From positions 992,001 to 1,056,000 of the forward strand of contig NC_052482.1 of the NCBI RefSeq assembly GCF_009730915.1: a stretch of DNA of 64,000 bases. Reading direction: 5' to 3'. The notes under the pieces were generated by a model. That model saw only the letters and a list, made by a program, of their open reading frames with translations. It did not search any database and had not been told where the DNA came from. Shown piece after piece: positions 59,568-61,754 of the stretch. Position 1 is the stretch's first letter, and every line of letters begins with the position of its first letter. Source of the DNA: Dioscorea cayenensis subsp. rotundata. Its lineage: Eukaryota > Streptophyta > Magnoliopsida > Dioscoreales > Dioscoreaceae. Position numbers and translations under genes: made by a program.

Positions 59568-61754
59568 TCAAACCCTAAATCCCCTGCTGTTTCTCCTGCC
59601 TCTAGCCTTTTCAAATTTCCTTCCCTTTGCACGAACATACGGCTTGGTATTGCTGTGCGGAACACCAGGTGCTGGGCCGAAGTGCTTCACTGCTTCCCTT
59701 GCGTTCTTCGGGCCTCTCAGGAGAACCTGAAATATATGCATATCCAAATAAATCAGCTTATGATGTTCTTATGGAACATAAAAACTAAACTGCAAAAGCA
59801 TTGGCAGGAGTTGTTCAATGAATAATATAGCCCTCAACCAATCACAACTACCTGTTGGCACATACTTTTCATCACCATTTTAAGACATAAATATTTTCTT
59901 CCTTCATGGTTCTAACTTATAAGAAACAACGTCAACCGAAGAAACCAATTCTTGTATATGTTCAACTCATTTGATGACTTTGTGTCAATTCTTTATGCCC
60001 AACATATCACAAAGATCTTATGACAATGAATCAAATATGGATATGAGAAGTGTGCCTCAAACCAAGAAAATAAAAGCACAGACAATTATTAAATGCGAGA
60101 CAAGGGACCACACTTAACAACCAAAATATTAACATAAGGTAAATAAAAAAAAAATGTTGACCGTAACAACAGCAATGTGAATTTTGGTTGTTTCACATGA
60201 TTGCTCACAGAAAGACACTTAATGAGGACTAAAGAGAGAGAAAGAATCAGTCATTGAAAAATGTTGACCATCAAGACTAACGCTATGAACTAAGTTTCTT
60301 GTTTCACAAGATCTGTCACAAACAGGCAATGATGAACAACAAGAGATGATGCTCACTTATAGAAACATCTTACATTTCAAATAAGCTAACAAGTACAGGC
60401 TAAAAGAGGAACAAAGGCACAAGAGAATGGAATAACAAAAACATGATCAAGCTCAGATAACGTTTTAATAATTTGCTCCTTGGTATTCAATGGAAGACCT
60501 CACAATGAGCTGAGATAAAAATAACATCATCATAGCTTCAACAACTTCATACCACTCATATAAAAACATCTTATATTTCAAACAAGGCTAATAAGCTAAC
60601 ATATACGCTTAAACACAAAATGGGAGCAACATTATGGAATAGGATAACAAATTATGCTAATAAAACCAAAGCTCAGATAATGTTTCTTTAATAATTTGCT
60701 CCTTGGTATTCAATGGAAGACCTCACAGTGAGCTGAGTAAAAACAATATCATCATAGCTTCAACACCGTCCAAAGCATCAAAGAGAACCCAGATGGAATA
60801 TCCTACCTATCTAACATGAGCAAATGATAAAAAGAACTACATTTTCCCCATATATTAGATCAAGATCTACTAAAAAAACCTAATCCTATATCTTTCAATC
60901 TTAGAATTAATTGTAAGTATCACTGAATCACTGAACACTATTAATTAAGGCTGTTACAACAAAATGGGAAAGTAAATGCACAAAATACAACCATAAATTG
61001 CATGCCAAATCAAGGTATTACCTTTGCATTCATTAAATTCACAGAAGAAATAAATCATTGCTAGAAAAACCAGACAACACTCACCGTGTTCTGACCAAGA
61101 GGTGCACGGAGAGCGAGCTGATCAAAGGTCAAACACTCCCCGCCGGAGTTCAGGATCCTGGCCCTGGCCGTCTCAGTGAACCTCAGCGCTGTGACCTTCA
61201 TCGCTGGAACCTCATAAACCCTCTTGTCATCAGTCACCGTGCCAACAATCACCGCAATCTTATCATCCTAAATCACAAAATCAATCCAAAAAAAAAAATT
61301 CAAAAAACCTCATCAAAACATCATAGAATGAGAAAATCAGAGAGATCCTCACCTTTCCGTCCATAAACTTGATGAGCCGCCGGAGAGAGATCGGAGGGCG
61401 GTTGGTCTTGCTCATGAAAAGCCGCTTCAACACCACGGCATTGAAATTGCTTCCCGTTCTTCGCACAAGAAACCTATACAGCTGATGAAAACCCAAGAAC
61501 AAGAAGAAGAAGTTCATCATATCAATCCAAAGCCACAGGAAACCTCAAATCAAAACGAAATCGGAGATCAATTCGAACCTTGACAAGGAGCTTGAGGTAA
61601 ACATCATCAGACCTAGGGGCTGTGCGCTTGGTCCTCTTGCTGCGCCCGCCGGCGACGAGATCAATACCCTAAAAAGCAATGGAAACGAAGATAAAGCCAT
61701 AGAAAGAGTATGAAACTTAGATTTGGGCTAGGGTTAGGGTTCCGATCATACCAT
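59568..61754 (-). CDS. RPL18: 60S ribosomal protein eL18
   Basis: Component of the cytosolic large ribosomal subunit. Five coding exons, 61754-61752, 61668-61579, 61481-61353, 61267-61085 and 59726-59568, sum to 564 nt, or 187 aa, the exact family length. The first coding exon is only the ATG; the second opens [20 protein letters not shown]. Further hallmarks: [81 protein letters not shown], and the end RGFRV. All introns are GT-AG. The long last intron (61084-59727) holds two copies of a C/D-snoRNA-like sequence in sense. The promoter has a TATAAATA box and telo-box-like AAACCCTA motifs, typical of plant ribosomal protein genes. There is no pseudogene sign. Confidence 0.97.
60449..60538 (-). 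ncRNA. Candidate C/D-box snoRNA, copy 1, intronic
   Basis: Read on the minus strand, as the host intron is: AAGC stem, C box ATGATGA (60533-60527), a 70-nt middle, D box CTGA (60456-60453), then GCTT closing the stem. Length 90 nt. These are the defining parts of a box C/D snoRNA (2'-O-methylation guide). The block GAGGTCTTCCATTGAATACC is identical in copy 2. I could not match a guide to rRNA by eye; the bases just before the D box differ between copies, so a guide at D' or an unusual target is possible. The call rests on boxes, stem and conservation only. Confidence 0.6.
60669..60760 (-). ncRNA. Candidate C/D-box snoRNA, copy 2, intronic
   Basis: Minus-strand AAGC stem, C box ATGATGA (60755-60749), middle region, D box CTGA (60676-60673), GCTT. 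92 nt. It is about 85 percent identical to copy 1 by eye, with all boxes and the terminal stem kept although the surrounding duplicated intron has diverged more. Two tandem sense copies in one intron fit the clustered snoRNAs known in plants. Confidence 0.6.

Follow-up and report, generated by a model that had tools for sequence, protein, structure and literature searches.

The window, that is, the whole 64,000-nucleotide stretch of DNA analyzed here, carries an intact coding region for the ribosomal protein eL18 on the minus strand (59568–61754), whose five exons, joined by script across GT-AG introns, encode 187 amino acids. The translated protein matched the Pfam family Ribosomal_L18 (E = 8e-94), and its closest solved structure was 8ip8_JA, a 60S eL18 (E = 3e-110). 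The last intron (61084–59727) extends over 1358 nt, compared with 83, 97, and 85 nt for introns 1–3. A telo box, AAACCCTA (61855–61862, minus strand), lies 108 nt upstream of the eL18 ATG, and such boxes are described as common in plant ribosomal-protein promoters (PMC3022908). Neither a site II motif in the 506 nt nor a TEF1 box in the 500 nt upstream of eL18 was detected, and a single AGCCCA occurs in intron 1. Elsewhere in the window, open reading frames matched Transposase family tnp2 (Transposase_21; 17719–18987, minus strand, E = 8.4e-90), PMEI (6835–7407, plus strand), Glycos_transf_1 (8619–9573, minus strand, in two pieces, the second just below the Pfam cutoff), AP2 (40288–40779, plus strand), and Abhydrolase_1 (54312–54785, plus strand); the frame at 32755–33267 (plus strand) matched no Pfam family. 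A run of N at about 3160–4170 (1000 N in the window) appears as X-filled open reading frames.

The last eL18 intron contains two C/D snoRNA-like sequences in sense orientation to the host gene, each running from AAGC to GCTT on the minus strand. Copy 1, the upstream one in eL18, spans 60669–60760 (92 nt), with AAGC at 60760–60757, an ATGATGA C box at 60755–60749, a CTGA D box at 60676–60673, and GCTT at 60672–60669. Copy 2, the downstream one, spans 60449–60538 (90 nt), with the same elements at 60538–60535, 60533–60527, 60456–60453, and 60452–60449, respectively. Both therefore combine a RUGAUGA C box and a CUGA D box closed by a short terminal stem, and the sequence and box positions agree with the description in the earlier note of two sense copies with an AAGC/GCTT stem in this intron. 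Their spacing, put at 220 by that note, is 222 from start to start and 220 to 223 depending on the repeat family. The snoRNA ends of copies 1 and 2 are 942 and 722 nt, respectively, from the 3' splice site. Scanning both strands of the whole window for a 4-bp stem, RTGATGA, 45–99 nt, CTGA, and the closing stem returned only these two sites, compared with a mean of 0.08 and a maximum of 1 in 100 first-order Markov sequences, a comparison that is indicative only because the pattern was devised after the sites were known. Folding of the whole snoRNAs, from inputs that each lacked one base at the 5' end, gave weak results, with z = -2.08 for copy 2 (5/200 shuffles equally good) and z = -0.95 for copy 1 (32/200).

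The two copies belong to a tandem duplication of intron sequence on the minus strand, in which one unit (60559–60770, about 212 nt) holds copy 1 and its drifted flank and the other (60358–60548, about 191 nt) holds copy 2 and its drifted flank. In the alignment of the units, 85/89 snoRNA columns were identical compared with 58/101 flank columns, with gap columns excluded (4 in the snoRNA and 19 in the flanks); Fisher's test gave p = 2.3e-10, a value to be read as indicative only, because columns of one alignment are non-independent trials. A 25-nt core is identical between the copies, and a search of the window allowing up to 3 mismatches gave no third one. The two copies differ by a 3-nt indel in the spacer that precedes the D box, and the guide core before the internal D' box is retained in both. 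The contrast described earlier, a conserved snoRNA part within a duplicated intron flank that has drifted, is thus borne out, and the boxes, the stem, this identity contrast, and the family match given below together support a duplicated C/D snoRNA kept by selection in the last eL18 intron. The copies might instead be decaying, unexpressed snoRNA pseudogenes whose similarity is left over from a recent duplication or gene conversion, and their family scores below the gathering score and their degenerate D' boxes would fit such a history; we nevertheless regard it as very unlikely, given that neither copy has lost its C box, D box, terminal stem, or guide core, whereas the co-duplicated flanks have drifted to the level just given. 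The same intron also holds a second, older-looking tandem duplication (60120–60350, minus strand; spacing 107–111), with repeats of 77% over 30 nt and 13/13, in which no Rfam family appeared at E ≤ 1.

An Rfam scan at gathering scores reported no family, because both copies fall below the 45 bits set as the gathering score of RF01198, the plant snoR69Y family. Both nevertheless matched RF01198 over its full length (model positions 1–99), copy 2 with 42.2 bits and copy 1 with 36.4 bits. Across the whole window, four Rfam rows reached E ≤ 1, of which the copies ranked first and second (E = 0.00027 and 0.007); the other two were TCV_H4 (E = 0.46) and MIR530 (E = 0.61). A local Rfam scan gave seven further rows, all under 20 bits. 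SNORD16, snoR1, snoZ105, ceN111, snoZ161_228, and snoR30, which fell at the same place with 15–20 bits and E ≥ 0.28, were rejected, and sR3 lay elsewhere on the plus strand with 12.4 bits. Because the cutoff is conservative and the full-length matches are the best rows of the window, we read the copies as divergent snoR69Y members just below the curated cutoff, an assignment by inference that stays short of Rfam's own criterion. The covariance-model comparison proposed in the earlier note has, in this sense, returned a C/D family, though under its gathering score.

Pairing of the sequence before the internal D' box was assessed against the first 83–110 bases of contig L001, which starts in the 3' part of a eukaryotic large-subunit (LSU) rRNA; this is not the rRNA of the plant itself, and it agrees with the Rfam consensus across the target stretch. 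Two further scans of viral contigs for eukaryotic rRNA gave two loci, which were not used, and none. In copy 1, the putative guide ACUCAGCUCAC (60728–60738, minus strand) can form 11 bp with LSU rRNA GUGAGCUGGGU, its last base being the first of the CUGU box; on the rRNA, this site reads GUGAGCUGGG(U). In copy 2, the guide CUCAGCUCAU (60505–60514, minus strand) can form 10 bp with GUGAGCUGGG, and its last base is the first of the UUGU box. At the same place, the RF01198 consensus forms 8 bp, in agreement with the duplex given in PMC8053127. The equivalent of C2949 stands opposite the base five before CUGU in copy 1 and UUGU in copy 2, as the D+5 rule has it. The arrangement that characterizes snoR69Y, a guide before D' that pairs with LSU rRNA GAGCUGGG and places C2949 at +5, is accordingly found here over 11 and 10 bp, with a degenerate box and a second register present. 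The most likely target predicted from these sequences corresponds to Arabidopsis 25S C2949 (yeast C2948). The earlier note had called the target not obvious and possibly unusual, a view that the snoR69Y match does not support: a portion of the conserved core immediately precedes D', facing a site methylated in Arabidopsis, and the puzzle is answered because the conserved guide belongs to D' rather than D.

The strength of this pairing was compared with that of dinucleotide shuffles. Of 5000 shuffles, 230 for copy 1 and 529 for copy 2 contained an equally long run at this target, numbers that fell to 18 and 139 when the Watson-Crick count was added, and to 0 and 29 when a box match at +5 was added as well, a criterion chosen after the sequences had been seen. 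In a previous round with 2000 shuffles, the length test gave 102 for copy 1 and 191 for copy 2, and a run as long anywhere in 83 rRNA bases was found in 69 and 178 of 400 shuffles, respectively. The guide aside, copy 1 has three and copy 2 four other runs of 8–9 bp to the rRNA stretch, indicating that short runs are common, and complementarity by itself would be weak evidence. The identification rests on the family match, with which the pairing is consistent.

Compared with the RF01198 consensus, both copies carry two additional bases between CAGCUC and UGUGAG, which lengthen the duplex and create a second possible D' box, GUGA, with +5 on the equivalent of A2947. The candidates of copy 1 (60723–60728, minus strand) are CUGU at 60728–60725, with the C2949 equivalent at +5, and GUGA at 60726–60723, with the A2947 equivalent at +5; those of copy 2 (60500–60505, minus strand) are UUGU at 60505–60502 and GUGA at 60503–60500, with the same respective positions at +5. 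The boxes CUGU and UUGU are degenerate, and inspection by eye revealed no convincing C' box in either copy; degenerate internal boxes are described as usual in eukaryotic C/D snoRNAs (PMC8413462). Two D' registers are thus possible on sequence grounds, one for C2949, which is favored, and one for A2947, or both may be used. Should the guide derive from snoR69Y with its D' register moved by two bases, the A2947 equivalent would be methylated instead of, or besides, the C2949 equivalent. The two extra bases, the Infernal alignment of GUGA with the consensus AUGA, and Neurospora CD27, in which one element is predicted for both equivalent sites (PMC2780460), lend this shift some plausibility; however, the overlapping box-like CUGU and UUGU leave C2949 at +5, and we consider the shift unlikely. 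The position of A2947 at +5, as expected of U29, is obtained only with GUGA as D', and no U29 row appears in the Rfam tables, which omit lower rows of the same clan. A related conjecture, which we rate as quite unlikely, is that the two-base gain at the guide 3' end has produced a lineage-specific dual guide for the A2947 and C2949 equivalents, rendering U29 partly or wholly redundant, and that a division of labor between the two sites may be starting in the tandem pair, where the final guide base is C in one copy and U in the other; a dual guide of this kind is conceivable because a single element of CD27 is predicted to serve the two equivalent positions.

Much of the most conserved core sits between D' and C', where a small hairpin, GGUCUUCCAUUGAAUACC, is possible in copy 1 (60705–60722, minus strand; -3.6 kcal/mol, z = 0.01 versus shuffles) and, with the identical sequence, in copy 2 (60482–60499, minus strand). 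The corresponding hairpin of the RF01198 consensus reaches -8.8 kcal/mol (z = -3.32). The hairpin of the copies is no better than shuffles, and the 39 consecutive identical columns of the copy alignment around it are therefore not accounted for by that hairpin. We also weighed a second guide located between D' and C' and discarded it, as it is not followed by a box. Since guides have no known role in this part of a snoRNA, its conservation could point to an intronic cis element for splicing or intron retention that merely resembles a snoRNA, an explanation that we find extremely improbable in view of the full-length family match of both copies and of a guide in register with the site assigned to the family. 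As a separate observation, the RF01198 consensus has an 8-bp rRNA match (GGUCUAGG/UUUAGACC) immediately beside the rRNA site of its guide, and the copies have no counterpart of this match. It could represent either additional pairing or a chance run, the latter because the consensus has nine runs of 8–9 bp in all.

Taken together, the two sequences are very probably tandem duplicates of snoR69Y within eL18, predicted to guide methylation of the C2949 equivalent through D'. From what is generally known of C/D snoRNPs, both snoRNAs would arise within the eL18 pre-mRNA by transcription of the host gene and be freed from the last intron, after which C/D core proteins would bind each of them. The sequence before D' would then pair with LSU rRNA at GUGAGCUGGG and guide fibrillarin to the nucleotide corresponding to Arabidopsis 25S C2949 (yeast C2948) for ribose methylation. 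We take this nucleotide to lie near the peptidyl-transferase center. A conserved target is unlikely for the spacer preceding the D box. Speaking against this scheme are the scores under the gathering score, the weak complementarity taken alone, the degenerate D', the want of a convincing C', and a core between D' and C' whose role is not explained, together with the low rank of the SnoR69Y/C2949 duplex in PMC8053127 and the blank plant column in PMC8817022. The presence of two snoRNAs in one intron poses no obstacle, since the plant standard is a polycistronic precursor cleaved by endonuclease (PMC5122169).

The earlier statement that intronic snoRNAs in plant ribosomal-protein genes are less common than in animals held in part. 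Few plant snoRNAs are intronic according to PMC5122169. PMC3022908, however, counts 31/109 rice snoRNA loci as intronic, with 15 of these in ribosomal-protein genes, and describes the intronic arrangement as the exception in Arabidopsis. For maize, 70% of the host genes of intronic novel ncRNAs are reported to encode ribosomal proteins (PMC6172812). In the main texts of the open-licence literature, no paper was found that names snoR69Y in an intron of plant eL18, and, judged by title and the start of the abstract, none of the matches listed linked plant RPL18 introns to snoRNAs. Exact strings of the copy sequences led to no related paper in the open-licence literature. A 15-base pattern occurred in at least 117 stretches of prokaryote genomes, which were taken as chance from the pattern length and the size of the collection.

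The closest known system is plant snoR69Y (RF01198, clan CL00051), with which the copies share the full-length model match, the C/D boxes, the CAGCUC guide core before D', and the predicted rRNA site. They differ from it in a guide extended by two bases at the 3' end, so that the duplex comprises 10–11 bp rather than 8, in a different and weaker D'-C' hairpin, and in scores of 42.2 and 36.4 bits against the cutoff of 45, which suggests that plausible plant snoR69Y copies can score below the Rfam cutoff and escape annotation. In Arabidopsis 25S rRNA, PMC8053127 assigns C2949 to SnoR69Y and A2947 to U29, and ranks the 8-bp SnoR69Y/C2949 duplex, conserved in yeast, among four weak, less certain predictions. 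AtsnoR69Y is equated with RF01198, and its yeast counterpart is given as snR69 (PMC3511168). The latter (RF00475, clan CL00051) is the counterpart at the equivalent rRNA site (PMC3511168, PMC8817022), the likeness drawn here being one of site; in the available part of PMC8817022, the plant column is blank at this site. RF00475 is not named in the rows of the window-wide or local Rfam scans, in tables that omit lower rows of the same clan. U29 (yeast snR71) has A2947 as its assigned Arabidopsis target, two bases from C2949 (PMC8053127), and fungal CD27 of Neurospora crassa, likened here by description only, is predicted to address both equivalent sites with one D' element (PMC2780460). A target described earlier as not obvious gives way to a named guide and a predicted site 27 bases beyond the A-loop U2922 of 25S (Arabidopsis numbering, PMC8053127), and the tandem copies lend themselves, as a natural experiment on a modest scale, to the study of guide length and D' register. 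What is new is two probable further members of a known family, snoR69Y, with a slightly longer guide.
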